This document shows positions 6,014 through 37,395 of a DNA stretch of 64,000 nucleotides, one piece after another; the stretch's first letter is position 1, and the number at the start of each line of letters is the position of its first letter. Made by a program: the position numbers and the translations under genes. The notes beneath the pieces were generated by a model that saw only the letters and a list, made by a program, of their open reading frames with translations, was not told the origin of the DNA and searched no databases. The DNA is from Amycolatopsis sp. 195334CR. GTDB lineage: Bacteria > Actinomycetota > Actinomycetes > Mycobacteriales > Pseudonocardiaceae. Location of the stretch: contig NZ_JAFJMJ010000001.1 in the NCBI RefSeq assembly GCF_017309385.1, positions 3,658,001 through 3,722,000 on the forward strand, written 5' to 3'.

Positions 6014-6519
6014 CCGTCGTCGAGAAGTTCCTCGACCGCCAGCTGGCCGAGGACGCCAGGTATGGCGGGCGGATGGACCTGGACGAGTGCCCGCCGCTGC
6101 CGCCGGCGCTCGATCGCCACCTGCGTTCCCGCGCCCGGCAGGCGGGCGCGCGGCTTCGCGCCGTCCAGGAGATCCGGGCCGCCGGGTTCGTCCGGTTGCT
6201 GGCTTACGCCTACGCCGGGATGCCGGGCTACCGGGACACCTGGCAGCCGGACTTCACCGAAGGGCCCCTGCCGGAGCGGTGGCGCGAGGAGGAGCGCCTG
6301 GCCCGCGCGGCCGCCGAGGAGGCCGGGATGGAGTTCAGCTGGCGGGAGGTCGAGCGTCAGGACGGCCAAGGCCTGGTCATCGACGGCTTCGGCCGACCGC
6401 TCTGGGAGACCGCCGTCTACCCGGAGGACGGTTTCCAGATCTCCCGCAACGGACCCGGCCGGGTGCTGCGCGAACTGGCTGCCCGGCGCGAGTTCCTGGT
6501 CCTTTCAGGACAGATGTGA
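6010..6519 (+). CDS. Conserved hypothetical protein, coupled to nudC
   Basis: 169 aa from GTG 6010, overlapping the nudC stop (GTGA). No membrane segment, signal or motif I can name. The N-terminal half is helical and charged, and the C-terminal half holds a VIDGFGRPLWETAVYPEDGFQ stretch. It might belong to one of the small actinobacterial DUF families with similar N-termini, but I cannot assign one. Its stop lies 15 bp inside the convergent RNase HI gene, so the two 3' ends overlap. Confidence 0.7.
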   Translation: MTVVEKFLDRQLAEDARYGGRMDLDECPPLPPALDRHLRSRARQAGARLRAVQEIRAAGFVRLLAYAYAGMPGYRDTWQPDFTEGPLPERWREEERLARAAAEEAGMEFSWREVERQDGQGLVIDGFGRPLWETAVYPEDGFQISRNGPGRVLRELAARREFLVLSGQM

Positions 6520-7602
6520 GATGTCGTTCGCCAGGCGGACGGAGGCGTTGCCGTCGGGGTAGAACTCGACGATCGACAGCGACGCGAGGTCCAGGTGCAG
6601 CCGGAACAGCAGCGACGGCCCGGCGTCCAGACCCAGCCGCAGCAGCGACTTGATCGGCGTGACGTGGCTGACCACCACCACGGTCCGCCCGGCGAAGCGC
6701 TCGACCAGGTCGTCGCGCACCGCGCGCACCCGCCGGTGCACGGCGTCGAAGCTCTCGCCGTCCGGCGCGGGCACCGACGCGTCGCTGATCCAGCGCGCGT
6801 GCAGGTCGGGATCGCGTTCGGCGGCTTCGGTGAAGGTGAGCCCCTCCCAGCTGCCGAAGTCGGTTTCGATCAGGCCCTGGTGCGTTTCCACCCGGCCGCC
6901 GAGCGCGTCGGCCACCGCCTGCGCGGTCTGCTGGGTGCGCAGCAGCGGGGAGGAGACGATCGGCGCGGGCTCGCCGTCGGTGATCAACCCGTCCATCGCG
7001 GCGATCCGCTTCGCCGCGGCGGCCACCTGGCGCTGCCCGTGCTCGGTGAGCGGGACGTCGCCGCGCCCGGAGTAGCGGCGGTCCACGGACATCTCGGTCT
7101 GCCCGTGGCGCAGCAGGAGGAACTTCGTCGGCGTGCCCTGCGCGCCGCTCCACTTCGCCGGGGACACCCGGTCCGCGGTCTTGGCGGCGGGTTCCTTGCC
7201 CGCCTGGGTGTCCATCGCCTCGTTGGCGAGTCGGTCGGCGTGCGAGTTGCTCGCGCGCGGGATCCACTCGTACTGCACGCGGTCGAAGTTCGCCGCCAGT
7301 TCCCGTGCCCGCGCGGCCAGCGGCTGCAGGTCCGGGTGCTTGATCTTCCAGCGGCCGGACATCTGCTCGACCACCAGCTTCGAGTCCATCCGGACGTCCA
7401 CAGTGGACGCACCGAGCTCGGCGGCGGCGGCCAGCCCGGCCAGCAGGCCGGAGTACTCGGCGAAGTTGTTGGTCGCCACGCCGAGCCCGGCCTGGCGCTC
7501 GGCGAGCACCTCCCCGGTCTCGGCGTCCTTCACCACCGCGCCGTAGCCGGCCGGCCCCGGGTTGCCCCGCGAGCCGCCATCGGCCTCGATGGTCACCCTC
7601 AC
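6505..7602 (-). CDS. Bifunctional RNase HI / histidine-phosphatase protein
   Basis: 365 aa from GTG 7602, in a GTGA overlap with the zinc-ribbon gene upstream. Residues 1-130 are an RNase HI domain with the four acidic residues visible (D8, E49, D73, D123). From about residue 160 a phosphoglycerate-mutase-like phosphatase domain begins with the catalytic LLRHGQTE (H166) and ends with a SHVTPI motif. This is the fusion known from Mycobacterium as Rv2228c, which degrades RNA-DNA hybrids and has acid phosphatase/CobC-type activity. Residues 130-158 are a linker. Gene order with the zinc-ribbon and Nif3 genes matches mycobacteria. Confidence 0.93.
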   Translation of the reverse strand: MRVTIEADGGSRGNPGPAGYGAVVKDAETGEVLAERQAGLGVATNNFAEYSGLLAGLAAAAELGASTVDVRMDSKLVVEQMSGRWKIKHPDLQPLAARARELAANFDRVQYEWIPRASNSHADRLANEAMDTQAGKEPAAKTADRVSPAKWSGAQGTPTKFLLLRHGQTEMSVDRRYSGRGDVPLTEHGQRQVAAAAKRIAAMDGLITDGEPAPIVSSPLLRTQQTAQAVADALGGRVETHQGLIETDFGSWEGLTFTEAAERDPDLHARWISDASVPAPDGESFDAVHRRVRAVRDDLVERFAGRTVVVVSHVTPIKSLLRLGLDAGPSLLFRLHLDLASLSIVEFYPDGNASVRLANDISHLS

Positions 7603-8336
7603 AGGCCGGACTCCATGGTGCGCACCAGGATCGCGTTGCAGTTCTCGCACTGCACGACCTCGTCCTCGGCCGCCGACTTGATCTCCGAGACGGTGTTGCG
7701 GTCCAGCTCCAGCTGGCACGCCCCGCAGCGGCGCGAGCGCAGCAGTGCCGCGCCGATCCCGCGCTGCGCGCGCACCCGCTCGTAGAGCTTGGTCAGCGGC
7801 TCCGGGAACTTCGGCGCCAGTTCGGCGCGGTCCTGCTCACGCCGCGCCTGGGTGGTGTCGATGTCGGCGAACGCCTCGTCGCGGCGGCGGGCCGCGTTCT
7901 CCAGCTGCCCGGTCACCTTGTCCACCTCGGCGCCGGTGCGCTGGGCGTCCAGGTCGAGCGCCTCGCGGCGTTCCATCAGCTCCAGCAGGTCATCCTCCAG
8001 CGCGGTCTGGCGGCGCTGCAGGCTCTCCATCTCGTGCTGCAGTTCGGTGAGCTGCTTGGCGCCGACCGCACCGGACTCCATCGCCTTGCGGTCCTTGTCG
8101 CTGCGGGTGCGCACGGAGTCGATCTCGCGCTCCTGCCTGGTCACCTCGCGGTCCAGGTCGGAGGCGTTGGTCTGGACCGACACCAGCGCGTCCTTCTTGG
8201 CGCGCAGCTCCTGCTCCAGCTCGGCGATCTCGGTCAGCTCCGGCAGCGTGCGGCGACGGTGGGCCAGCCGCGACAGCTCCGCGTCGACCTTGGCGAGCTC
8301 CAGCAGGCGGCGTTGCACGGCGGGTTCGGCCTTCAC
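7599..8336 (-). CDS. Coiled-coil protein with C4 zinc ribbon (DUF164-type)
   Basis: 245 aa from GTG 8336. Residues about 10-170 are a long antiparallel coiled coil rich in Glu, Arg and Gln heptads. The C-terminus carries a zinc ribbon with two cysteine pairs (CGACQLEL and CENCNAI). This matches the Rv2229c / CT398-like zinc-ribbon family, whose members have been proposed to act as chaperone or adaptor proteins; the biochemical role is open. The gene sits between Nif3 and RNase HI, as in mycobacteria, and is coupled to the latter. Confidence 0.9.
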   Translation of the reverse strand: MKAEPAVQRRLLELAKVDAELSRLAHRRRTLPELTEIAELEQELRAKKDALVSVQTNASDLDREVTRQEREIDSVRTRSDKDRKAMESGAVGAKQLTELQHEMESLQRRQTALEDDLLELMERREALDLDAQRTGAEVDKVTGQLENAARRRDEAFADIDTTQARREQDRAELAPKFPEPLTKLYERVRAQRGIGAALLRSRRCGACQLELDRNTVSEIKSAAEDEVVQCENCNAILVRTMESGL

Positions 8337-23408: not shown

Positions 23409-24974
23409 CTACTCGTTGCAGGTGCGGCCGGAGTTGATGCAGTCCACGACCCGGGTCATGATCGCGTTCGACATCACGTTGGCGAAGTCGTCGTGGTCGG
23501 AGAGGGGGTTGTGGTCCTCCTCCGGGAAAGCGTCCACTTTGTACTGACCGGCGAGCTGGACCTCGCGGGGGATCTCGTAGGTCAGGCTGATCCGCAGCTG
23601 CGGCACGGCGGTGAAGCCGTCCTCGCACTGTCCGTTCTCGTTGGGGTAGACGATGTGGTCGCGGTGGTTCTCGCTGTCGATGTTCTGGCCGTCCCAGCAG
23701 CTCGGGAAGTCGTGGACGCGCATCACGTCGCTGCCCTCGGGGCAGATGGTGTACTTGTCGATGCGCACCTGGTCCTCGAAGCCGGTGCAGGTCCACGACT
23801 CCTGGGCATTGGCGGGGCCGTTGGTGGACACCTTGGCGTCGCCGTAGAGCACGCGGAGGAACTTGGGCATCGCCTCGACCTCGGTCACCGGACTGCCGCG
23901 GAACGTGATGTCGACGACGGAGGGGCGCTGGATCTCGCCCTCGTTGCCGGGGAGCTCCCCGTTCTCGTCCTGCGGGGGCAGGGCTTCGTCCTCGTTGCCG
24001 CCCTGACCCTGGTCACCTTGGCCCTGGTCCTGGCCACCCTGGCCCTCGCCTTGGCCGTCCTGGCCTTGGTCGCCCTGGTTCTGGCCGTCCTGGTTCTGGC
24101 CACCTTGGCCGTCCTGGCCCTGCCCGTCCTGGCCCTGCTCGTTCTGGCCTTGGTCGCCCTGGCCACCTTGGTCCTGACCGTTCTGGCCCTGGTCACCCTG
24201 GCCGTCCTGGCCGCCTTGACCCTGCTGGCCTTCGCCGTCCTGGTCCTGACCCTGCTGGTCCTGCTGGCCCTGGGCGCCTTGGTCCTGGGCGTCCTGGTTC
24301 TGGCCACCGTTCTGGTCGCCCTGGTTCTGGTCGCCCGGGGCCTGGCCGTCGCCCTGGTCGTCCTGGGCCTGGTCGCCGTTCTGGCCGTCGTTCTGGCCGT
24401 TCTGGGCGCCGCGCTGGCCGACTTGCCTGCCGTCCTGGTTCTGGGCGCCGCCGCGTCCGGCCTCTTCGGCCTGCGCCTCCTCGGCGTTGTCCTGCTGCTG
24501 CTCCTCCTCGCTGTCGCCCTCGGTGTCGATGCGGACGACCGGCCAGAAGTAGGCGGACTTGTCGCCGTTGGCGCAGGTGGTGCCCGCGGCCTGGAGGCTC
24601 TGGTTGTTCGAGTCGGCGTCGGTGGACAGGTTGCCGACGTAGTCGTGCAGGTGCTGGGCGCCGTTGCGGACACCGGGCTGGGCGATGAAGTTGTCCGGGT
24701 TGAAGTGCCCGTTCTCGTTGCGGCCGCAGTCGACGGTGGAGGTGCCGGTGGAGGCATCCTGCTGGGCGTCCGGTTCGTTCACGTTCGGTTCGACGGTGGT
24801 GATGTCGACGAACTGGCTCTGGTCGGGGCTGTCGGCACTGGCCTCCGGGGGTGAGCCCGTGGTCGTGAAAACGGCCAGCGCACCGACCGTGAGCACCGCG
24901 AGGCCGATGCCGCCGGTGGTCAGTTTGGCTTTGCGGGAGACGCGGTGCCTTCCCTGGAAGCGGTCTCGGGCCAT
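23409..24974 (-). CDS. Exported DUF1996 protein interrupted by a long Gln/Gly/Asp/Asn-rich insert
   Basis: 521 aa from ATG 24974, with GAGGTG 8 bp upstream. A membrane or signal segment lies at residues about 19-42 (LTTGGIGLAVLTVGALAVFTT). The DUF1996 domain starts with CGRNENGHFNPDNFIAQPG and the family hallmark HLHDYVGN, runs to KSAYFWPVVRID, and is broken at about residue 151. About 195 residues of almost pure G, Q, D, N and E follow (GQNQDGQ-type repeats, bases about 23935-24520). The domain then resumes with PSVVDITFRGSP, KFLRVLYGDA and HDFPSCWDGQN. DUF1996 proteins are secreted and of unknown function; in fungi and bacteria they are linked to the cell wall. Seven cysteines after the signal probably form disulfides. 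Confidence 0.85.
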   Translation of the reverse strand: MARDRFQGRHRVSRKAKLTTGGIGLAVLTVGALAVFTTTGSPPEASADSPDQSQFVDITTVEPNVNEPDAQQDASTGTSTVDCGRNENGHFNPDNFIAQPGVRNGAQHLHDYVGNLSTDADSNNQSLQAAGTTCANGDKSAYFWPVVRIDTEGDSEEEQQQDNAEEAQAEEAGRGGAQNQDGRQVGQRGAQNGQNDGQNGDQAQDDQGDGQAPGDQNQGDQNGGQNQDAQDQGAQGQQDQQGQDQDGEGQQGQGGQDGQGDQGQNGQDQGGQGDQGQNEQGQDGQGQDGQGGQNQDGQNQGDQGQDGQGEGQGGQDQGQGDQGQGGNEDEALPPQDENGELPGNEGEIQRPSVVDITFRGSPVTEVEAMPKFLRVLYGDAKVSTNGPANAQESWTCTGFEDQVRIDKYTICPEGSDVMRVHDFPSCWDGQNIDSENHRDHIVYPNENGQCEDGFTAVPQLRISLTYEIPREVQLAGQYKVDAFPEEDHNPLSDHDDFANVMSNAIMTRVVDCINSGRTCNE

Positions 24975-25649
24975 CGACTGTTTCACCTCTTGTTCGGGGC
25001 GGTTGGGTCTGACTGGCGCGCCGCTCGGGGATACGGGCGTTCCGCGCGCGGTGGACGAAAACGAGGCCTGTTCGTTACTCTGCCGTTATAAAGTCATCGT
25101 CGCTGCTGGGGGGCCTGCCCCCTCGGCGGCAAGATCACCGAGAAGAGCGCCGGATGACGGAAAGTGAGGGAAACCGGAGGTTTGCGGTAACCCGCGTCGC
25201 GTTCTCGCCGTTCGAACGGGTGAGCCCCGCAAATGTGAAGTCGATGTGAGGAGCCGTCACCCACTGGAGGCCGCAGAAGGGACCGAACGGGGCATGCCAC
25301 ACTGTTCCCGGCGCGATCCGCCCCCTACCTCGGCCACCTGGAGTAGTCAAAATCCTCGCGTGTGAGTGAGTCGATTCGCACACTAGGAAATCCGGGTGGA
25401 CTGGGTTAATCCTGGACGCCCCGGCAACGATGATGGAGGGGATGGGTATCGGTGAGAGTGGTCCATGCCCGCGTGGCGCGGGCGCGGGTACGGCACGGGC
25501 GCATCCGGCGCGTGCGCTTTGACCACCACATCTCGTACGGCCATCATGTTTCTCGCGCACAGTAGTAGGTTCGGCACGTTCGGCAATCACGGCGGACCGG
25601 AGGTACCGGGCCCGCCCCGGCCCCGCCCGCGGTACTCAGGAGTTAAGCG
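24975..25649. other. 675-bp intergenic region upstream of DUF1996 and T4SS-like genes
   Basis: No convincing gene on either strand: frames here have poor codon bias. The base composition is clearly less GC-biased than the neighbours. Seen: TATAAC-type -10 on the minus strand near 25086-25091, which could serve the DUF1996 gene; a GCCCGCG-TGG-CGCGGGC hairpin at 25467-25483; TTGACC at 25518-25523 as a possible -35 for the plus strand; and AGGAG just before the 25650 start. It probably holds two divergent promoters and a long 5' leader. Confidence 0.5.
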
Positions 25650-25916
25650 ATGACCACCATGACCCTCGCGGCCCTGGCCCAGGATGGCGAACTGGGCACC
25701 AAGGGCGTGCGCGACTGGATGATCGACAACATCATCCCTCTTGTCCTGCTGGCCGTCGCGTTGCTGCTGCTCTGGCTGGGTGGCGGCAAGGGTGACAACG
25801 CCGGTGTGATGCGGCGCCTGGCCGGGGTGGTGATCGCGCTGGCGATCATCGGCCTCGCGGTCAGCGGGCTCGGCGTGGACGTCGGCGAATGGATCGCCGG
25901 CTTGTTCACGGGCTGA
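25650..25916 (+). CDS. Small two-helix membrane protein, VirB2/TrbC-like position
   Basis: 88 aa from ATG 25650, preceded by AGGAG. Two membrane helices (residues about 28-45 and 56-74) are joined by a short GGGKGDNAG loop with a basic patch, the layout of VirB2/TrbC pilin-like proteins of type IV secretion systems. There is no clear signal peptide; the N-terminus is short. It stands first in a seven-gene co-directional locus with VirB3-, VirB4-, VirB6-, VirB8- and VirB1-like proteins. The assignment rests on size, topology and position, since this family has little sequence conservation. Confidence 0.7.
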   Translation: MTTMTLAALAQDGELGTKGVRDWMIDNIIPLVLLAVALLLLWLGGGKGDNAGVMRRLAGVVIALAIIGLAVSGLGVDVGEWIAGLFTG

Positions 25917-25923
25917 GGCACCC

Positions 25924-26361
25924 GTGCGCATCCGAACCGACGACGAGGTCTACCGCGTCGACGCCGTCTGGCTCGGCCCGCCGAAGGCGACCTTCCCCTG
26001 GCGGGCAAGGTACGTGGCCTGGGCCGTCGGCATTCCCGTCTTCCTCGTCGTGCTCACGATCGAACGCCAGATCGGGCTCGGCTTCGGCTTCTTCTCGACA
26101 GCTTGGGCGTTCATCGCCACCATCGTGATCACGCGGCTGATCACGGCCAAGATCAGCCACGAACGCCCGCTCAGCGCCGTGCTCACCATGTGGGTGCGGG
26201 AGCTGAACACCCCACGTGAGCGTTCCACCGGCACCGGTGGCGCGGTCAGCGCGAGCAAGGTCCGGGTGCGGACCGAACGACCCCGGCCCCGGGGTGCTCG
26301 CGGACGAGCCAGCCAAACACGAGCGCGCCGCGGTGGCACCCACGCCGTGGCGGGGAGGTAG
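25924..26361 (+). CDS. VirB3/PrgI-like membrane protein
   Basis: 145 aa from GTG 25924, 7 bp after the previous stop. Two adjacent membrane helices (residues about 31-48 and 55-72) follow a short cytoplasmic start, then a basic Arg-rich tail with SASKVRVRTERPRPRGARGRA. The small two-helix protein directly before a VirB4 ATPase is the standard place of VirB3 or PrgI in type IV secretion loci. The arginine-rich tail, about 50 residues, is unusual for the family and may contact nucleic acid, lipid or the ATPase. Confidence 0.65.
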   Translation: MRIRTDDEVYRVDAVWLGPPKATFPWRARYVAWAVGIPVFLVVLTIERQIGLGFGFFSTAWAFIATIVITRLITAKISHERPLSAVLTMWVRELNTPRERSTGTGGAVSASKVRVRTERPRPRGARGRASQTRARRGGTHAVAGR

Positions 26362-26364
26362 TCG

Positions 26365-29295
26365 TTGTCCGGTCGTAGCCGAGGTAAGCGGGACCAGCGC
26401 CCCGTCCAGCCCAAGCAGGGCAGCGGCGGCAGGCGTGGCCGCAGACTGCCCGGCGAGCAGGCGGTGCCCTCCTACACCCCGTCGATCGCCGCGCGCAGCA
26501 TCGACGGGCACCTCCTGCGCACCGGGCACGAGGTCTACGCCTGGTACCGGCTGGCGCCGCAGCGCTGGTCGTTCCGCTCGGACTCCCAGCGCCGCGACCT
26601 GATCGCGGCCATCGCCGGGCAGTACGCCGAACTGGCGGGCCGCTGGCTGCACCTGCGGGTGACCAACCGGCCGTACCCGATCCGGATGTGGGCCGAGGCC
26701 CACGTGCACAACGCGCACGACCGCCCCCGCGACGTCCCCGGCGCGCTCTCCTTCGACGACTACCTGATCGGCGAGCAGCAGCAGCTGATGGGCCGGTCGA
26801 TGGCGGAGAAGGAGGTCTACCTCGGCGTGCAGGTGCAGACCCGCCGCGCGGTGGACCGCGCGGTCGAGCGGGCCGCGCCGCTGCTGCGCAAGATCCTGCC
26901 CGAGGCCGTGGACGCCGAGCTGATGGCGCTGGACTCCGAGGTCGAGCACCTCGACCAGGTGCTCGGCTCGGCCGGGCTGGAGGGCAGGCCGGCGCACGCC
27001 GACGAGATGTCGTGGCTGATGCACCGGTCGTGCTCGCTGGGCCTGCCCGCGCCGCGGAACATGCCCGCCGTGCCGGGTGCCGCCTGGGAACCGGAGGACT
27101 TGGCCAGCTTCACCGACGCCGCCGACTTCCACGCCGACCCGTACGCCCCGACGCTGACCGTCCGCGGCCGCACCGGGTCGAACGCCGGGGTGACCCGCAA
27201 CCTCGCGGTGCTCACCGTCGGCCAGATGCACGGCCTGCAGATCCCCGAGGTCGACGACCCGTGGGTGCAGCACGCCGACCGGCTGCCCGCCTCGGTGGAG
27301 TGGTCCGCGCGGATCTACGTGCGGCGCCCCGAGGAGGTCGCCGGCGAGCTGCAACGCCAGATGAACAAGGTGCGTTCGCAGGTCAAGCACTACACCGACG
27401 AGCACGAGCTGGAGCCGCCGCAGTCGCTGGCCCGGCAGGCGTCGCGGGTGCTCGAGATCGACGACGAGATGACCTCGGGCTTCACCGCGCTGGCCACCCG
27501 CGTGCGGTCGTGGTGGCGGCTGGCGGTGTCCGGGCCGACCGAGCGCGACGCGCTGCGCCTGGCCCAGCAGCTGCTCGACCTGTACAAGCCGAAGATCGCC
27601 ATCGAGCACCCCGAGGCGCAGTACGCGATGGCCAGGGAGTTCATCCCCGGCGAGCCGCTGGCCTCCGGCGCCTACACCCGCCGCGGGTCGGTGGTCTGGG
27701 CCGCCGCCGCGGTGCCGACCGCGACCGCCGAGGTGGGCGACCGCCGCGGCATCCTGCTCGGCGAGACCTGCACCGCGACCCGTCGCCCGGTGGCCTGGGA
27801 CCCGTGGATGGCGCAGGAGATCCGCGACGGCTCCGGCCTGACCGCGATGGTCGCCGGGCTGGGTGGCGGCAAGTCCTTCCTCGGCGGCGGCATCGTCTAC
27901 AAGACGCTGCGCGCCGGGGCGCACTGGACCATCCTCGACCCGTCCGGCCCGCTGTCGCGCCTGTGCGACCTGCCGGAGATCCGGCCGTACGCGCGGCCGA
28001 TCAACCTGCTCAACGCCGAACCGGGCATCCTCAACCCGTACCGCGTGGTGGCCGAGCCGCTGCTCGAGCACTTCATGGACGAGGACGACCCCGAGCGCTC
28101 GTGGCGCCGGGAGAAGGCGCTGGCCGGTGCCACCCGGCGGCGGCTGGTGCTGGACGTGCTGACCGGCGTGCTGCCGTACGAGGTGTCGCGCATGCCGCAG
28201 AGCCGGATCGTGCTGCTGCGCGCGGTCCGCGCGGTCGGCGGCCGGTTCGACGCCGATCCCGGTCAGGTGATCGACGCGCTGCGCCGCGACTCCAGCGAGC
28301 ACCACGAGCACGCGGTGGTGGTCGCCGACTTCCTCGACGAGATGCGCGAGCGCATGTCGCTGCTCATCCCCGAGCAGAACGAGGACCCGTACTCGGACAC
28401 CCGGGACGACCGGATGACCGTGCTGACCATGGCCGGGCTGACGCTGCCCAAGGACGGTGTCGGCCGCGAGCACTGGACCGACGCCGAGGCGCTCGGCGTG
28501 GAGATGCTGAACCTGGCCGCGTGGCTGACCCAGCGGTCGGTCTACGAGCGGCCGAAGGAGTTGCGCAAGGGCGTCTGGATCGACGAGGCGTTCTTCCTCT
28601 CCGAGGTACCGACCGGGCGGGTGCTGATGAACCGCTTCGCCCGTGACTCGCGCAAGTGGAACGTCCGGGTGCTGCTGTCCTCGCAGATCCCGGCGGACTT
28701 CCTGCGCATGCAGGGCTTCGTCGCCCTGCTCGACTCCGTTTTCGTCGGACGGCTCGATGACGACGAGGCACAGGCGGACGCGCTGCGGCTGCTGAAGGTG
28801 CCGGTCGGCGTCGGCTACGAACAGGTGGTGGCCGCGCTCGGCCGCCGCCCGGGCGCCCATCGCGACACCGAACGCGACCGGGAGCCGCGGCAGTTCATCT
28901 TCGGCGACGGCGCCGGTGGTGTGGAGCGGATCCGGGTGGACTTCTCCGGTCCGCACCTGGAGCACCTGCGCCACGCGATGGACACCACGCCGGGTTCGAA
29001 GGACGCGCCAGGGCAGGTCCGGCCCGATCCCGCTCCGGCACCGGAGCCCCGCCACGTCCCGGTACCACCGGACGACGACTCCTCGAGCTACGCGGAGTCG
29101 GACTTCGAACTCGCGGCGGAGCTGGAGGTCGGGTTGACCGAGGAGCAGGTGCTGTCCGAACCGGTGCCGGGCGGTCAGCCGTCCGACGGCGCCGGTGGCG
29201 AGAACGGCAACGGCAACGGCCGGGGACCCGACGGCGGTGGTGGGGTCCGGGCTTCGGCGGGCTCCCAGGGCGGACCGGGCCGGGACGCGGCATGA
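26365..29295 (+). CDS. VirB4/TraC-like ATPase of a type IV secretion-like system
   Basis: 976 aa from TTG 26365, with GGGAGG 7-12 bp upstream. The N-terminal 450 residues match the VirB4 N-domain in layout: a substrate-free region with EVYAWYRLAPQRWSF and GEQQQLMGRSM. The C-terminal RecA-like domain has Walker A GLGGGKSF (residues about 498-504) and Walker B GVWIDEAFFL (about residue 736), with a later LLSSQIPADFL sensor segment. The last 80 residues are Pro/Gly-rich and disordered. This is the motor of the locus. No VirD4-type coupling ATPase is present in the window. Confidence 0.88.
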   Translation: MSGRSRGKRDQRPVQPKQGSGGRRGRRLPGEQAVPSYTPSIAARSIDGHLLRTGHEVYAWYRLAPQRWSFRSDSQRRDLIAAIAGQYAELAGRWLHLRVTNRPYPIRMWAEAHVHNAHDRPRDVPGALSFDDYLIGEQQQLMGRSMAEKEVYLGVQVQTRRAVDRAVERAAPLLRKILPEAVDAELMALDSEVEHLDQVLGSAGLEGRPAHADEMSWLMHRSCSLGLPAPRNMPAVPGAAWEPEDLASFTDAADFHADPYAPTLTVRGRTGSNAGVTRNLAVLTVGQMHGLQIPEVDDPWVQHADRLPASVEWSARIYVRRPEEVAGELQRQMNKVRSQVKHYTDEHELEPPQSLARQASRVLEIDDEMTSGFTALATRVRSWWRLAVSGPTERDALRLAQQLLDLYKPKIAIEHPEAQYAMAREFIPGEPLASGAYTRRGSVVWAAAAVPTATAEVGDRRGILLGETCTATRRPVAWDPWMAQEIRDGSGLTAMVAGLGGGKSFLGGGIVYKTLRAGAHWTILDPSGPLSRLCDLPEIRPYARPINLLNAEPGILNPYRVVAEPLLEHFMDEDDPERSWRREKALAGATRRRLVLDVLTGVLPYEVSRMPQSRIVLLRAVRAVGGRFDADPGQVIDALRRDSSEHHEHAVVVADFLDEMRERMSLLIPEQNEDPYSDTRDDRMTVLTMAGLTLPKDGVGREHWTDAEALGVEMLNLAAWLTQRSVYERPKELRKGVWIDEAFFLSEVPTGRVLMNRFARDSRKWNVRVLLSSQIPADFLRMQGFVALLDSVFVGRLDDDEAQADALRLLKVPVGVGYEQVVAALGRRPGAHRDTERDREPRQFIFGDGAGGVERIRVDFSGPHLEHLRHAMDTTPGSKDAPGQVRPDPAPAPEPRHVPVPPDDDSSSYAESDFELAAELEVGLTEEQVLSEPVPGGQPSDGAGGENGNGNGRGPDGGGGVRASAGSQGGPGRDAA

Positions 29296-29356
29296 GCCAC
29301 TCGGCCCGAGCGGCGGCCACGGCCGTCCGCGGGAACCCCGCTGCGGGTGACCTCGC

Positions 29357-31426
29357 ATGATCACCGTTCTCGTGCTCCTGGCGGCGGCCGGGGCCTGGCA
29401 CCACCTGCGCCGGCGCAAGCGGCGCGAGCCTTCCCCGGTGCGCCGCAAGCGGGCCGCCATGCTGATGGTGGTGGCGATCCTCGGCGTGCAGGCCGTGGTC
29501 ACCGCTCCGCAGGCACTGGCCGCCGAATGCGGTGCCGCCCCGAACCCGGAACGCCCGGGCTCCGGCATGGTCGGCGCGCTGGACCCGGCGTTCGAGACGC
29601 GGGGCATGGCGGACAGCCCGTACGACCAGTACAGCTACGCCGGCATGGTGTGGAACGTCTTCGAGACGAACTGCGGCCCGATGGCCGGCTTGACCGACCC
29701 CAACTCGACGATCGACACCTGGGGCGGCAACCAGCTGTTCAACATGGGCAAGAACATCGTCGGGGCCACCAACTCCCTGCACTACACGGTGATGGAGGGC
29801 GGCCTGCTCACGCCGCTCTACAACGCCGTCAAGACGGGCGCCGAGAAGATCTACGGCAACATCTACGCCCAGCTGTTCGGTCTTGCCGCACTGCTGCTGG
29901 CCATCATGATGTTCCGCAACATCTGGCGCGGGGACCTCGCCACGGTGAGCAAGCGCGCCCTGTTCGCGCTCGGCGGCATCTGGCTCGCCGCTTCCTCGCT
30001 GGCCTTGCTCCGGTACTTCGATCCGATCGACCAGGCGATCGTCCAGACGACGACCAACATCCAAGCCGGATTCGTGGACGACACGGAGAACACCGTGGTC
30101 CGGCACGTGCTACCGACCAACCTGCACAACCAGGTCGTCTACAACAACTGGCTGCGCGGTGAGTTCGGAGCGGCCGACTCGGTTCAGGCCGAGCAGTTCG
30201 GCCGCAAGCTCCTCGACGCTCAAGCCTTCACCCGGGATCAGCTCCGCAGTGGTGCCGACGCCGATCAAGCCGTGGTGGACGCGAAGAAGGGGGAGTTCAA
30301 GAACATCTCCACCCAGCTCGGTCCCGCCACGGGCTACTTCACCGGCGAAGACGGCAGCCGCACGGGTGCCGGTTTCCTGGCGTTCCTGCAGAGCTTGGTC
30401 TATTCGCTCTTCCAGCTGTTCGCCAAGGCCGCCGTCCTGCTGGCCCAGGTGCTGGTCCGCTTGTTCACGCTGACCGCGCCGTTGATCGGCCTGGTGGCGA
30501 TCCTGCACCACGACATCCTCCGCCGGGTGGCGAAGGTGCTCGGGGCGGTCGCGTTCAACCTGATCGTGCTGTCCGTGCTGGCCGGCGTGCACGCCCTCCT
30601 CCTGCAGGCGATCTTCGACGCGGGCAACTCGCTGTCGATGCTGGTGCAGATGGCGATGGCCGGCCTGGTCACCATCCTGCTGTTCCTGGTCGGCCGCCCC
30701 GGGCGGCGACTGTGGCAGATGGTGGAGATGTCGGTGAGCATGGTCGGCTCGGCCGTGCCGACCCCGCGCGGCGGGCTGTTCTCCCGCTTCCGCAAGCACA
30801 GCAACGAACCCAGCCCGCAGGACGAGTTCTGGCAGAACGTCCGCGACACCGACGAGACCACCGGCACCGAGCAGCGCGGCCCGATCGGCGCGACCGCCGG
30901 CGGTGGCCGCTTCCGCCCGGAGGCGACCGTGTTCGCCACCTCGCAGCGGCTGGACAACACCAGCCTCGGCAACCGCCCGGCCGCGGCCTGGTCCGGCGCC
31001 ATCCCCGGCGCTCTGCCCGGCAACGGCCACGCCGAACTTCCCCCGGGAAGCAACGGCATGCCGGTGTTCGGCGGCTTCCTGCCGGGCGGCAACCTGCCCG
31101 GCAACCAGCTCCCGCAACCGGCCAGCCGCCGGGTGGACACCTCGCCGGTGTTCGACCGGGGCTGGGACCGCGGCGACGACCCGGAGCCGGTGGTGATCCC
31201 GTCCAGGATGACCTCGGCCAACGGCACCCAGCCGGAGGCGGCCTTCGCGCCGCCGGTGGCCGTGCCGTCGACGCCGTCGGCCGCCGCCATGCCCGCACCG
31301 CGCCAGCCCCGCCGGGTGGACCCGGAACTGGTGGGCGGCAGGCCGGTGCACGTGATCTATCGCCCTTCGCGCGGGCTCGAGGTGCGCGAGGACCTTCGTG
31401 ACACCGACCGTGCCGTGAGGGGGTGA
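29357..31426 (+). CDS. VirB6-like polytopic membrane protein
   Basis: 689 aa from ATG 29357. A signal-like or first helix near residues 33-52 ends in PQALAAEC. An extracytoplasmic stretch with several cysteines follows, then helices around 175-190, 200-215 and a cluster at 345-450 (LVYSLFQLFAKAAVLLAQVLVRLFTL, LIGLVAIL, VLGAVAFNLIVLSVLAGVHALLL, LVTILLFLVG). A cytoplasmic Pro/Gly/Asn-rich tail of about 240 residues ends it. Five or more helices plus a long soluble tail in the place after VirB4 fits VirB6/TrbL or the TcpH-type channel protein of Gram-positive systems. No enzymatic motif seen. Confidence 0.72.
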   Translation: MITVLVLLAAAGAWHHLRRRKRREPSPVRRKRAAMLMVVAILGVQAVVTAPQALAAECGAAPNPERPGSGMVGALDPAFETRGMADSPYDQYSYAGMVWNVFETNCGPMAGLTDPNSTIDTWGGNQLFNMGKNIVGATNSLHYTVMEGGLLTPLYNAVKTGAEKIYGNIYAQLFGLAALLLAIMMFRNIWRGDLATVSKRALFALGGIWLAASSLALLRYFDPIDQAIVQTTTNIQAGFVDDTENTVVRHVLPTNLHNQVVYNNWLRGEFGAADSVQAEQFGRKLLDAQAFTRDQLRSGADADQAVVDAKKGEFKNISTQLGPATGYFTGEDGSRTGAGFLAFLQSLVYSLFQLFAKAAVLLAQVLVRLFTLTAPLIGLVAILHHDILRRVAKVLGAVAFNLIVLSVLAGVHALLLQAIFDAGNSLSMLVQMAMAGLVTILLFLVGRPGRRLWQMVEMSVSMVGSAVPTPRGGLFSRFRKHSNEPSPQDEFWQNVRDTDETTGTEQRGPIGATAGGGRFRPEATVFATSQRLDNTSLGNRPAAAWSGAIPGALPGNGHAELPPGSNGMPVFGGFLPGGNLPGNQLPQPASRRVDTSPVFDRGWDRGDDPEPVVIPSRMTSANGTQPEAAFAPPVAVPSTPSAAAMPAPRQPRRVDPELVGGRPVHVIYRPSRGLEVREDLRDTDRAVRG

Positions 31427-31429
31427 CCC

Positions 31430-32035
31430 ATGCCCATCAGGACCAACCGCGGCCGCGCCGCGGTGTACCGGAGGCTGTGGGGCTGGCCGCTGCGCTCGAC
31501 CACCCACCTGACCATTTCGCTGGTGGTGCTGGCCGTGTTGCTGATCGCGGCCGGCGTCCTGGTGCCGAAACTGGTGGGGGACAACGGATCGCAGCGCACC
31601 GGTCGCGCCGGGGAGATCTCGGTGAACCCGGACGACGGCAAGGCCGCGCCGCCGGCGTCGCGCGGCACCACCGGCCCGCTGCCGACGCGGCTGTCCGAGC
31701 CGAGGGAGTCGCCGACCTCGGCGGCGCCCAACGGCGACGCCATGCGCGTGGCCGAGCAGTTCGCCGCGGCCTGGGTCAACCACCCCGACGGGATCACCAC
31801 CGAGGCGTGGATGGCCGGGCTGAAACCGTTCACCACCGACGAGTTCCTGCCCACGATGTCCACTGTGGACCCGGCGAACATCGCGGCCACCCGGGTGACC
31901 GGGGCGCCGGTGCCGATCAGCTCGCTGACCAGCTCACTGGAGGCAGAGGTGCCGACCGACGGGCCCAAACTGTCCATCACCGTGGTCAGCACGAACGTCG
32001 GCTGGCGGGTTTCGGCGCTCGACCAGGCGGGCTGA
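31430..32035 (+). CDS. VirB8/TcpC-like bitopic protein
   Basis: 201 aa from ATG 31430, 3 bp after the previous stop. One membrane helix (residues about 28-48) is followed by a Pro/Ser/Thr linker, and a C-terminal domain of about 100 residues (AMRVAEQFAAAWVNHPDG ... VGWRVSALDQ) with an NTF2-like, helix-then-sheet pattern. This is the layout of VirB8 and TcpC, the structural assembly factors of type IV secretion. No motif makes the call firm; it rests on topology and neighbours. Confidence 0.65.
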   Translation: MPIRTNRGRAAVYRRLWGWPLRSTTHLTISLVVLAVLLIAAGVLVPKLVGDNGSQRTGRAGEISVNPDDGKAAPPASRGTTGPLPTRLSEPRESPTSAAPNGDAMRVAEQFAAAWVNHPDGITTEAWMAGLKPFTTDEFLPTMSTVDPANIAATRVTGAPVPISSLTSSLEAEVPTDGPKLSITVVSTNVGWRVSALDQAG

Positions 32036-32038
32036 GCC

Positions 32039-33037
32039 GTGAAGATCGGCGTGCTCGTCGGAGTGCTGGTCACCGTGTTGTTCGCCGCCGTGGTCACCGC
32101 GGGCACCGTCGCCGTGGTGGTGGACAACCAGCAGGAGCAGCAGGCGCTCGGCGTGGTCAACCTCAGCTGCGACGCGGCGATCGGCCCGAGCCAGCCGGGG
32201 CAGCAGGGCAAGGGCGCGGCGGACGCGGCCAACCTGAAGGACGAGCAGCTGCAGATCGTCACGCTGATCATCACCATCGGCAAGCAGCGGCAGCTGTCGC
32301 CGCGCGCGTGGCAGATCGCCATCCAGGCCGGGATGACCGAATCGGGCCTGCGCAACCTGAACTACGGTGACCGCGACTCGCTGGGCATCTTCCAGATGCG
32401 GCCGTCGATGGGCTGGGGCACGGTCGCGCAGGTGACTGATCCGCCGTACCAGGTCAACAAGTTCTACGACGTGCTGCTCGCGGTGAAGGGCTGGGAGACG
32501 ATGCGCCCCGGCGAGGCGGCGCAGGCGGTCGAGCGCTCGGGGTTCCCGGACCGGTACCACAAGTGGGAACCGATGGCCGTGCACCTGGTGGAGAACGTCG
32601 GCGAGGTGGTCGACGCCGCGGGCTGCGGTGAGGGCACCGGCGCGGTGCTGCCGCCGAGCCAGACCGCGGCCAAGGCGATCGAATTCGCCTTGGGGGAACA
32701 GGGAAAGCCGTACGTGTGGGGGGCGACCGGGCCGAACTCGTACGACTGCTCGGGGCTGATGCTGCGGGCCTACGAGGCGGCCGGCGTCACCCTGCCGAGG
32801 GTTTCGCGGGACCAGTACAAGGCGGGCGCGATGCTGCCGGTGGAGCAGGCCCAGCCGGGTGACCTGCTGTTCTGGGCGTACGACCCGTCGAACCCGAAGA
32901 CCATTCACCACGTGGCGATGTACCTGGGGGATGGGAAGATGGTGGAGGCGCAGCAGAGCGGCGTCCCGGTGCACACCAGGAAGGTCTCCTGGGACGAAGG
33001 CGAGCTCGTCGCGCAGGCGGTCCGGCCTGGTGTTTAA
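32039..33037 (+). CDS. VirB1-like bifunctional cell-wall hydrolase (lysozyme-like + NlpC/P60)
   Basis: 332 aa from GTG 32039. One N-terminal membrane helix (residues 4-28). The middle domain has a lysozyme-like catalytic stretch MTESGL (E101) and LGIFQMRPSMGWGT, as in soluble lytic transglycosylases. The C-terminal NlpC/P60 domain has C237 in YDCSGLM and H290/H291 in HHVAMYLG, with the usual GDLLFW motif. It should cut both glycan strands and peptide cross-links and open the wall for the secretion channel, the role of VirB1, TcpG or Orf14-type proteins. Confidence 0.88.
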   Translation: MKIGVLVGVLVTVLFAAVVTAGTVAVVVDNQQEQQALGVVNLSCDAAIGPSQPGQQGKGAADAANLKDEQLQIVTLIITIGKQRQLSPRAWQIAIQAGMTESGLRNLNYGDRDSLGIFQMRPSMGWGTVAQVTDPPYQVNKFYDVLLAVKGWETMRPGEAAQAVERSGFPDRYHKWEPMAVHLVENVGEVVDAAGCGEGTGAVLPPSQTAAKAIEFALGEQGKPYVWGATGPNSYDCSGLMLRAYEAAGVTLPRVSRDQYKAGAMLPVEQAQPGDLLFWAYDPSNPKTIHHVAMYLGDGKMVEAQQSGVPVHTRKVSWDEGELVAQAVRPGV

Positions 33038-33047
33038 GGAGTAGTGG

Positions 33048-34502
33048 GTGGCGAAGAAGTTCGGCAAGCGCGGCAAGAAGAAGGGCGCCCCGGAGGACCC
33101 GAGGAACATGTTCGGGCCGCCGATGCCGCGCCGCGGCGGGCCGCCCGCGTCGAGCACCCCGCTCGCCGATTTCCTCGACCGGGGCCCGATTCCCGGGGTG
33201 GACGAGGGGTATGTGGTGCTGCCGCGGTCCCTCGCGGAGGGCATGTCGTTGCCGTGGCAGCAGCAGACGGTGGAGCTGCTGTCGCAGTTCCACGGCACGC
33301 ACCGCGGGTTGTCGTGGCCGATCTACCGGGTGACGCCGTCGCGGTACGAGCGGCTGGTCGATCTGGACGAGGAGCAGCTCGCGGAGGCGGGCTACCTGGT
33401 CGAGATCGATATGGACGGGGACCTGGTCTACCGCGAGCGGAGCGGCAGGCGGGTGGAGAACCCGGAAAGCACGACGGTGCTGGTGGCCACCTTGGACCCG
33501 ATCGTGCGGCAGCGGCCGCCCGCGCGGCCGCGGCCGGAGGCCCCGGTGGAAGGCGCCTCGCGAGCGCCGGTGCCGATGAACCTGCCCCCTGCGCCGGTCT
33601 GGCGCACGACCCCGGCGAAGGCGGACTCGGGCGCGCCGCCGCTGCCGGTGCCGGAGCCGTCGAAGAACGTCGCGCCCGCCCCCACGCGGGAGGCACCGGC
33701 TCAGGCGCCACCCGCCGCTGCGCAGCAGGCCGCCTCCCAAACGCCGCCAGCCTCGGCCGAGTCGCCGGTGCCGCCCGCCGCGGCGCCCCAGGTATCGCCC
33801 GCCGCAGCGCAGCAGGTATCGCCCGCCGCAGCGCAGCAGGCCGCTTCCCAGATGCCGCCTGCCCCGGCCGAGTCGCAAGTGCCACCTGCCTCGGCGCCTC
33901 AGGTGCCGCCCGCCCAGGCGCAGCATCAAACGCCAGCCGAGGCTCCGAAGGCACCACCGGTACCGATCGGCTTCTCGCAGCCCGCCCCGCCAACCCAACC
34001 CGAGCCCTCAGCCCAGCCCGAGCCCTCAGCCCAGCTGCCCACCCGGCCCGAGCCCTCAACCCAGCCGCAGCCGCCCACCCAGTCCGAGTCGCCAGCCCAT
34101 CCCGAGCAGCGAACCCACCCCGAGACCTCAGCCCACCCCGGGCCGCCAGCCCAGCCGAAGCCCCCGGTCAATCCGCCGCTCGCACCCGGCGAGACCGCCG
34201 TCTCCACCTCCGGGCAGCTCCCGGCGATCCCGCCCGTCTCGGCCCGGCCGGTCACCGATCTCGACGAGCCCTTCGCCGTGCCCTCGCACACCACCGAACA
34301 CGCCACCGAACACAACACCGACAACACCGACGACACCGACACCCCGCCCCGCGGCCTCCGCCTCCCGGTCGACGACCGCGGCTGGTTCGACGAGCTGCCC
34401 GACTCGGCCTCGGCCGCCTCCTCCTCGGAACCACCCCAGGAGGAAGCGACCTTCGGCCCCAGCGGCGACCCGACCGAGATCCCCTACCGCTACCGCAAGT
34501 AG
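33048..34502 (+). CDS. Pro/Ala/Gln-rich cytoplasmic protein of the T4SS-like locus
   Basis: 484 aa from GTG 33048, with AAGGAG 6 bp upstream. Residues 1-30 are strongly basic (KKFGKRGKKKG). A folded domain at about 50-150 contains GYVVLPRSLAEGMSLPWQQQ and HRGLSWPIYRVTP. Residues 215-400 are low-complexity repeats of P-A-Q-S. A short acidic conserved C-terminus (DDRGWFDELP) ends it. No signal or membrane segment. I do not recognise the family; it could be an adaptor or chaperone that brings substrates to the VirB4-like ATPase. The 3' end lies 1 bp from the chitinase stop. Confidence 0.75.
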   Translation: MAKKFGKRGKKKGAPEDPRNMFGPPMPRRGGPPASSTPLADFLDRGPIPGVDEGYVVLPRSLAEGMSLPWQQQTVELLSQFHGTHRGLSWPIYRVTPSRYERLVDLDEEQLAEAGYLVEIDMDGDLVYRERSGRRVENPESTTVLVATLDPIVRQRPPARPRPEAPVEGASRAPVPMNLPPAPVWRTTPAKADSGAPPLPVPEPSKNVAPAPTREAPAQAPPAAAQQAASQTPPASAESPVPPAAAPQVSPAAAQQVSPAAAQQAASQMPPAPAESQVPPASAPQVPPAQAQHQTPAEAPKAPPVPIGFSQPAPPTQPEPSAQPEPSAQLPTRPEPSTQPQPPTQSESPAHPEQRTHPETSAHPGPPAQPKPPVNPPLAPGETAVSTSGQLPAIPPVSARPVTDLDEPFAVPSHTTEHATEHNTDNTDDTDTPPRGLRLPVDDRGWFDELPDSASAASSSEPPQEEATFGPSGDPTEIPYRYRK

Positions 34503-35973: not shown

Positions 35974-37395
35974 GTGGTGGCCCCTGTAGTGCTAGGCACG
36001 CACCCGGCCGGTGGTGACTTCGGCCGGCTGCGCACCGAGTTCGCGCTGCCCGGCGGGTTCGGCGCCGACGTGCTGGCCGAGGCCGAAGCCGCGGTGATGG
36101 ACCCGCTGCAGCTCGACGGCGACCGCGAGGACGCCACCGGCCTGCCGCTGGTCACCATCGACCCGCCCGGGTCGAAGGACCTCGACCAGGCGCTGCTGGT
36201 CGAACGCCGTCCCCGCGGCTTCCGCGTGCACTACGCCATCGCCGACCTGGCCGCCTTCGTCGCGCCCGGCGGCCCGATCGACCGCGAGGCCCGCCGCCGC
36301 GGCCAGACCCTGTACCTGCCCGACGGCAACGTGCCGCTGCACCCGCCCGTGCTCTCCGAGGACGCGGCGAGCCTGCTGCCTGGCGAAACCCGCCGCGCGG
36401 TGCTCTGGACGATCGACACCGACGCCGACGGCGAGCCGCTCTCGGTCCACGTGCGCCGCGCGCTGGTCCGGTCCACCGAGCAGTTCGACTACGAGACCGT
36501 CCAGGCCGCCGCCGACGCGGGCCGCGTGCACCCGTCCATCGAGGCCCTCCCCGTGCTCGGCCGCCTCCGCCGCGAGCTGGCCGTGCACCGCGGCGCGCTG
36601 GAACTCCAGCTCCCCGAGCAGGAGGTCAGCGCCGACGAGGAGGGGAACTGGCGGCTGACTCGCCGCCCCCGCACCGACGTCGACGCGTGGAACGCCGAGA
36701 TCTCCCTGCTCACCGGCATGAGCGCGGCGCGGATCATGATCGACGCCGGCGTCGGCGTCCTCCGCACGCTGCCCAAGGCCGAGCCGGACGCGGTGAGCTG
36801 GCTGCGCCGCTCGGCCCGCGCGCTGGGCATCGACTGGCCCGCCGAGGCCGGGGTCGCCGAACTGCTGTCCACTCTGGACCCCCGGCAGCCGGAGTCGCTG
36901 GCGCTCTACGCCGACACCACGCGCCTGCTGCGCGGCGCCGGGTACACCGCCTTCGACGGCACCGCGCCCGAGGTCAGCACCCATGCGGGCATCGGCGGCC
37001 CGTACGCGCACGTCACCGCGCCGATCCGGCGGCTGGTGGACCGGTTCGCCACCGAGATCTGCCTCGCGGTGACCGCGGACCGCCCGGTGCCGGATTGGGT
37101 GCGTGAGGCGCTGGGCCGGGTGCCCGAGCTGATGAGCGCGTCGGACACGCTGGCGGCCAGGGTCGAACGCGCCTGCGTGGACCAGGTCGAGGCGTGGATA
37201 CTGGCCGACCGCATCGGCGACACCTTCGGCGCGGTGGTGCTGCGTGCCGAGGAGACCAGGGCCGAGGTGCTGCTGGAGGAGCCGCCGGTGCTCGCCAAGA
37301 GCAGCGGCGAGGGCTTCACCGAGGGCGCGCGGGTGACCATCCGGCTGACCTCGGTGGACGTGGACAAGCGCAAGGTGAGCTTCGAGCGGGTGTGA
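35974..37395 (+). CDS. RNB-domain ribonuclease (RNase II/R-like)
   Basis: 473 aa from GTG 35974 (a second GTG follows). The RNB catalytic domain spans about residues 50-370. The acidic motif reads TIDPPGSKDLDQAL: D63, D69 and D71 are kept, but the fourth aspartate of E. coli RNase II is a glutamine (Q72). The C-terminal domain contains RVERACVDQVEAWILADRIGD and ends in an S1-like strand set. It lacks the N-terminal cold-shock domains of RNase R. A 3'-to-5' RNA exonuclease is likely, although the Q replacement leaves activity to be shown; I recall the same variant in other actinobacterial homologues. Confidence 0.88.
   Translation: MVAPVVLGTHPAGGDFGRLRTEFALPGGFGADVLAEAEAAVMDPLQLDGDREDATGLPLVTIDPPGSKDLDQALLVERRPRGFRVHYAIADLAAFVAPGGPIDREARRRGQTLYLPDGNVPLHPPVLSEDAASLLPGETRRAVLWTIDTDADGEPLSVHVRRALVRSTEQFDYETVQAAADAGRVHPSIEALPVLGRLRRELAVHRGALELQLPEQEVSADEEGNWRLTRRPRTDVDAWNAEISLLTGMSAARIMIDAGVGVLRTLPKAEPDAVSWLRRSARALGIDWPAEAGVAELLSTLDPRQPESLALYADTTRLLRGAGYTAFDGTAPEVSTHAGIGGPYAHVTAPIRRLVDRFATEICLAVTADRPVPDWVREALGRVPELMSASDTLAARVERACVDQVEAWILADRIGDTFGAVVLRAEETRAEVLLEEPPVLAKSSGEGFTEGARVTIRLTSVDVDKRKVSFERV

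Follow-up and report, generated by a model that had tools for sequence, protein, structure and literature searches.

Gram-positive conjugation channels of the Tn916/pCW3/pIP501 type combine a VirB4 (TcpF) ATPase, a TcpE-like protein, a protein of the TcpC fold, and a CwlT-type hydrolase. A similar set of parts is recognizable in a block of seven genes (g1–g7) at positions 25650–34502 on the + strand of the window, i.e., the whole 64,000-nucleotide stretch of DNA from Amycolatopsis sp. 195334CR that was analyzed here. Unlike those channels, the block has neither a relaxase nor a coupling protein at the locus, is chromosomal, and occurs family-wide in the Pseudonocardiaceae. Chromosomal type IV secretion systems (T4SS) without a relaxase are likewise on record: Guglielmini et al. 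2011 (PMC3158045) argued that such MOBless T4SS are mostly protein secretion systems and reported few T4SS in actinobacteria, whereas the block is present in every sampled genome of the family. A further described case is the Streptomyces cmdABCDEF cluster. According to its description (PMC2782261), SCO4127–4129 resemble SLP2.21–23, CmdB requires lysines 90 and 404, and deletion of the cluster disturbs sporulation and leaves SLP2 transfer unchanged (data not shown in that paper). The SLP2/cmdABCDEF pair resembles the block in that a linear-plasmid transfer cluster has a chromosomal relative, with a related hydrolase and a distant FtsK, and differs from it in gene order and in an ATPase (that of SLP2) without detectable similarity to g3.

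On balance, we read the block as a T4SS-like channel, vertically inherited and core to the Pseudonocardiaceae, that probably descended from the mating channel of a linear plasmid and lost conjugation. The computed support consists of gene content, family-wide presence, recurrent position, purifying selection, kinship with plasmids, and the failure to detect a plasmid-type FtsK. A scan of named genomes returned 286 stretches with g3 relatives, and the best 80 of these 286 were analyzed as the set of relatives used below; their titles name Pseudonocardiaceae genera (NCBI list), except for one "Actinomycetes bacterium" and one "Pseudonocardiaceae bacterium".

Gene content of the block

The seven genes are tightly packed, and all lie on the + strand (protein lengths in amino acids, aa):
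g1, 25650..25916, +: 88 aa, VirB2/TrbC-pilin-like, with two hydrophobic segments
g2, 25924..26361, +: 145 aa, VirB3/TcpE-like membrane protein
g3, 26365..29295, +: 976 aa, VirB4-type ATPase, with Walker A at 498-504 and a Walker B stretch at 735-743
g4, 29357..31426, +: 689 aa, polytopic VirB6/TrbL-like protein with a soluble tail
g5, 31430..32035, +: 201 aa, VirB8/TcpC-like by fold, with one hydrophobic segment (21-52) and an NTF2-like domain
g6, 32039..33037, +: 332 aa, VirB1/CwlT-like, with a muramidase-like domain and an NlpC/P60 peptidase
g7, 33048..34502, +: 484 aa, soluble, with a conserved N-terminal domain (about 1-160) and a variable Pro/Ala/Gln-rich tail

The initial annotation had described seven co-directional genes for VirB2-, VirB3-, VirB4-, VirB6-, VirB8-, and VirB1-like proteins plus a Pro/Ala/Gln-rich soluble protein, with intact Walker motifs in the VirB4-like protein and catalytic residues kept in both hydrolase domains of the VirB1-like one. 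This description held, with weak profile matches for VirB2, VirB3, and VirB6, and the profile check that it proposed for the ATPase returned a VirB4-type protein. The g3 product matches AAA_10 at 3.6e-19 (69.5 bits, cut-off 27.5) and TcpF at 4.1e-17, VirB4 4ag5 is the top PDB match of its profile, and Walker A and B are kept in 79/79 homologs, one Walker A position being Gly or Ala. With its AAA_10 P-loop domain and both Walker motifs, g3 belongs with the VirB4/TcpF ATPases. The g6 product matches NLPC_P60 in Pfam (4.3e-25) and, in the PDB, the muramidase 8b2e (1.2e-21) and the CwlT-type enzyme 4hpe (2.1e-27); Pfam SLT was not called for it. With its lysozyme-like and NlpC/P60 domains and catalytic residues retained in 77/77 homologs, g6 is a putative CwlT-type bifunctional hydrolase.

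The AAA_10 and NlpC/P60 matches were the only ones among the block proteins in the window to pass a curated Pfam or NCBIfam cut-off. In the g1 family, TrbC profiles matched 5/16 members (best 0.039, below cut-off), and g1 itself is present in 79/80 relatives. TcpE matches in the g2 family were weak (2/17 members, best 0.008). The g4 product matched CD3337/EF1877 at 6.8e-8, below cut-off, and TrbL profiles matched 2 of its 14 homologs and not the window protein itself; profile searches of the PDB with g2 and g4 gave no useful match. For the structure model of g5, Foldseek returned nothing at E<=0.001 (best 2.7e-3), and the VirB8/TcpC assignment comes from a VIA re-ranking of Foldseek's own matches; one transmembrane segment followed by an NTF2-like extracellular domain in the model suggests a VirB8/TcpC-type protein. 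Present in 76/80 relatives, with a profile built from 51 of these 76, g7 matched nothing in Pfam or NCBIfam and was assigned to no family, and its model (mean predicted local distance difference test score 72.6) had no PDB fold match at E<=0.001.

A minor feature precedes the block:
Promoter-like site 5' of g1, 25519..25547, +: candidate from a consensus scan (9/12), a match that does not by itself point to function

Conservation, position and selection

The VirB4 gene g3 was found in 100/100 sampled Pseudonocardiaceae genomes, representing 46/46 genera, and in all 80 genomes of the genus Amycolatopsis, the window's own genome included. At the class level, 24 of 197 sampled genomes matched g3 (own genome included), with 0/14 among the genomes listed for another family (f2). 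The block is unlikely to be mobile. A non-conjugative machine is its best reading, because it has no relaxase or coupling protein at the locus and is kept throughout the sampled family. The synteny check across relatives bore out the gene order: g1–g7 stand in the same order and on the same strand in 76/80 named loci, and the remaining four are cut short, L083 and L104 by assembly gaps and L106 and L124 by contig ends. Sixteen further family loci, picked for divergence or odd VirB4 frames, held g1–g5 in 16/16, g6 in 14/16, and g7 in 12/16.

Recurrent neighbors mark the position of the block. Upstream these are Nif3, zinc-ribbon, and RNase H/phosphatase genes, and downstream RNB, periplasmic-binding-like, prolyl-aminopeptidase-like, NADP-reductase-like, and panB genes. 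Of the eight housekeeping anchors, 73/80 loci have one or more, and 48/80 have anchors on both flanks; the seven loci without an anchor are short and cut by contig ends. The window holds 7/8 anchors, its upstream set lying ~16 kb off and inverted. Two of the anchors in the window are as follows:
RNB-domain ribonuclease, downstream anchor, 35974..37395, +: Pfam RNB 2.5e-49; 3' of the block in many relatives
RNase H/histidine phosphatase gene, upstream anchor, 6505..7719, -: identified by Pfam and tblastn; farther off and inverted here

The block is coding under purifying selection. Ratios of nonsynonymous to synonymous substitution rates (dN/dS), computed between the window genome and its three nearest relatives only, were 0-0.05 for g1, 0.04-0.15 for g2, 0.09-0.10 for g3, about 0.2 for g4, 0.19-0.33 for g5, 0.03-0.06 for g6, and 0.12-0.37 for the aligned part of g7. 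As the initial annotation had it, no att repeat was found flanking the block; nor was a tRNA gene or a marked change in GC content seen around it in the window. An integrated element was rejected on the lack of att-like repeats and tRNA genes, GC content like that of the surroundings, family-wide presence, and recurrent neighbors.

In four of the 100 family genomes (L192-L195), g3 carries 362-395 extra in-frame residues right after the Walker A lysine, ending His-Asn before the Walker A serine; the insert of L195, the sole one of the four scanned, matched LAGLIDADG_3 (3.1e-8). The insert resembles an intein in its signature, and an intein at the P-loop is probable.

Kinship with linear-plasmid modules

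Outside the family, the best g3 matches are plasmid-borne: 90 of 72,556 plasmid records, all below 60% identity (one Nonomuraea "plasmid" record of 11.85 Mb is presumably a chromosome). Ten of the 90 were read, a non-random choice by the authors from the listed rows that took in none of the Prescottella equi records: Rhodococcus pNSL1, a R. qingshengii plasmid, Pseudonocardia p1, Streptomyces sp. 891-h, NBC_01304, NEAU-S7GS2, SN-593 pRVR2, and FR-008 pSSFR2, Gordonia pSMJS1.2, and Nonomuraea NBC_00507. All ten are linear. Homologs of g2, g3, g4, and g6 occur in 10/10 modules with the block order kept, and profiles found g5 in nine, g1 in eight (E<0.05), and g7 in one (3e-10); tblastn with the g7 domain gave no match on plasmids, and a search of phages with g3 gave none. 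These modules are like the block in their small-small-VirB4-VirB6-VirB8-hydrolase order and in their VirB4, which in the ten shares 34-43% identity across 84-87% of the query. They are unlike it in being plasmid-borne, in having a ParA-like gene annotated near most of them, in having g7 in only one, and in a clear FtsK-type gene near 8/10 modules; four of these eight FtsK sequences belong to the profile itself, and the four independent ones reach E 6e-115 to 5e-160. MOB-suite typed 9/10 read plasmids as non-mobilizable and L181 as MOBP.

The block and the plasmid modules almost certainly share ancestry, and descent from plasmid to chromosome is the likely direction. In the maximum-likelihood VirB4 tree, the chromosomal Pseudonocardiaceae form one clade (100/100) that joins the plasmids of Pseudonocardia, Gordonia, and Rhodococcus at 99/96. 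Outside this grouping fall the plasmids of Streptomyces and Nonomuraea (98/96). A later tree with five divergent family loci gave a like arrangement, those loci being sister to the other chromosomal rows. Two later trees dropped 11 and 19 of the first tree's 47 rows as long or redundant, and the last tree gained 8.

Two loci on large contigs (L152 and L153) carry same-order VirB4 modules, 40% identical, with an FtsK-type gene nearby; they may represent an intermediate stage or an independent capture. Further VirB4 clusters, 27-31% identical, occur in family f18 of the same class (L155-L166); in several, a VirB6-like, a VirB8-like, and a hydrolase-like gene follow one another in order.

Function and competing explanations

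The features of a conjugative system were sought and not found for the block: the locus has no relaxase, no coupling protein or plasmid-type FtsK, and no att repeats, and its distribution is not sporadic. No relaxase was present among the window open reading frames (ORFs) scanned and no integrase among 16 scanned flank ORFs, with no integrase profile run genome-wide; a relaxase and integrase just outside, which would have spoken for an integrated element, did not appear, and recurrent housekeeping genes flank the locus instead. At E<=1e-3 the plasmid-FtsK profile had no hit next to the window or next to any of the 80 loci. An ortholog of this FtsK was not found in the 80 genus genomes, where 14 candidates were scored per genome; the best score was 63 bits (one genome), and the recurring best of ~52 bits came from frames mostly of 820-880 aa, which were taken as housekeeping FtsK. 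The VirD4 profile PF02534 had no match in the window's own genome, the one genome searched. The absence of VirD4 and relaxase from the locus, as annotated initially, held. The proposed genome-wide check had a mixed outcome: PF12696 (TraG-D_C) found a coupling protein that PF02534 had missed, and the idea of a genome without any coupling protein was wrong. In this genome TraG-D_C lies only in a separate cluster resembling an integrative and conjugative element (ICE), as does the relaxase; among the congeners it is present in 50/80 and absent from 30/80. The ICE-like cluster (L171, C1:858001-878000), about 2.8 Mb from the block, encodes PrgI, a VirB4-like protein, a TraG-like coupling protein, a Replic_Relax relaxase (2e-53), NlpC/P60, a KAP NTPase, and a TatD-like protein. 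The case for this element as the partner of the block is weak.

The block is very probably non-conjugative. That it still serves as a conjugation or mobilization channel, with relaxase and coupling protein encoded elsewhere, is unlikely: the ICE-like cluster offers both proteins, and 35/90 plasmid records with a related VirB4 were typed mobilizable, but the cluster comes with a VirB4, a PrgI, and a wall hydrolase of its own, the VirB4 gene of the block is present in each of the 30 congeners lacking TraG-D_C, none of the 80 yielded the plasmid FtsK, and a helper for sporadic elements is not expected as a core locus. The lack of DNA-processing genes at the locus would also suit a decaying remnant of an integrated plasmid, a scarcely credible reading given that all sampled family genomes have the VirB4 gene, that ATPase and hydrolase motifs are conserved, and that dN/dS is low. 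More weight, at a modest probability, goes to a chromosomal system that was ancestral, never a plasmid machine, and was captured by linear plasmids. Two chromosomal loci of the same order (f3) fall outside the plasmid-plus-chromosome clade, and deep trees are hard to root; yet the chromosomal Pseudonocardiaceae sequences group closely in a single clade that nests with a plasmid group on either side, and the f3 loci likewise have an FtsK-type gene nearby.

Kinship with cmdA-F (SCO4126-SCO4131) had been suggested by the initial annotation, and orthology with a shared role in sporulation and chromosome segregation was weighed as a rival. Like the block, cmd is a chromosomal cluster similar to the transfer genes of linear plasmids, and its deletion affects sporulation and not SLP2 transfer. 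PMC2782261 also describes CmdB as a homolog of VirB4-like proteins from Frankia and other sources, which counts against rejecting the kinship. The comparison was run with the SLP2 ATPase as a proxy for SCO4126-4131; this ATP/GTP-binding protein (729 aa) would be SLP2.21, the published relative of CmdB, by annotation and size. It scored -1.5 bits against the g3 profile, matched neither AAA_10 nor any other Pfam family, and has its sole P-loop by pattern at residue 58, compared with 503 in g3. The gene order also differs, and the part of PMC2782261 consulted mentions neither a VirB8-like protein nor a wall hydrolase among the cmd products. The SLP2 hydrolase resembles those of the modules (5.4e-24) and the SLP2 FtsK does so distantly (1.9e-11). 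Orthology of the window locus with cmd is not supported because the SLP2 ATPase shows no similarity to g3, and we consider it very unlikely; we conclude that the block and cmd are parallels and not orthologs, although their ATPases may share a remote common origin. One candidate for the cmd locus (L169) was not used, as its 999-aa AAA_10 ATPase, distant kin of g3 (3.3e-15), misfits CmdB lysine 90.

Several observations weigh against a core, non-conjugative channel of plasmid origin. A tree constraint to a single plasmid clade was rejected, but the constraint group was chosen after the first tree had been viewed, and its approximately unbiased test value (p-AU 0.018) is moderate; long plasmid branches likewise suggest that the plasmid-origin nesting is moderate, not strong, evidence. 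It is for their gene content that the plasmid modules are named transfer modules, and in two of them the FtsK-type match is weak and Pfam FtsK absent (L140, some 5 kb off, 8e-12; L178, adjacent, 8e-9). Scattered hits of a broader FtsK-domain profile lay in 5/80 flanks at 5-8 kb upstream of g1, the window having no such hit, and a coupling ATPase of another type could act in trans. In one genus (L193 and L206, 2/2 loci) g7 directly follows g5, a permissive search found no g6-like frame between them, and g6 is either lost there or replaced elsewhere. Six loci of two genera (L196-L201) have a VirB4 63-65% identical; the stretch read shows none of the anchors there, and g7 was found in 2/6. VirB4 is universal in the family sample; the hydrolase, g7, and the position are not. 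Substrate and function, finally, are inferred.

For such a descended channel, the mechanism may be pictured as follows. The g6 hydrolase would open the peptidoglycan, g1, g2, and g4 would form the membrane conduit, g5 would act as its scaffold in the wall, and g3 would power assembly and transport. In place of the plasmid FtsK, g7 might be a cytoplasmic adaptor that feeds the substrate, and the cargo would be protein, or the machine would serve hyphal growth or differentiation, rather than DNA. The initial annotation had favored a protein-exporting or differentiation machine over a conjugation system; its non-conjugative part is backed by family-wide presence and the lack of a relaxase and coupling protein at the locus, and the export or differentiation role stays an interpretation. 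Protein cargo or a role in growth or differentiation seems slightly favored. Protein cargo is the first guess because of the MOBless T4SS precedent (PMC3158045), and a role in hyphal growth is the second. More tentatively, all members of this major antibiotic-producing family may run a dedicated non-conjugative T4SS from a linear plasmid, with g7 replacing the coupling ATPase. Its task would be protein export or construction of the hyphal envelope, and it would stand next to Streptomyces cmd as another, independently domesticated system. If true, an industrially important actinomycete family would have a core machine for secretion or morphogenesis that has yet to be described, and the block would clearly exemplify how, in nature, a conjugation channel became a housekeeping device. 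No title describing the locus was found in the open-licence literature that was searched (without subscription papers and preprints).

A DUF1996 gene with a long Gln/Gly/Asp-rich repeat tract adjoins the block in the window (23409-24986, - strand) and was seen in 1/80 relatives. A DUF1996 gene is also present on the Pseudonocardia linear plasmid (L140), ~14 kb away from the module there.

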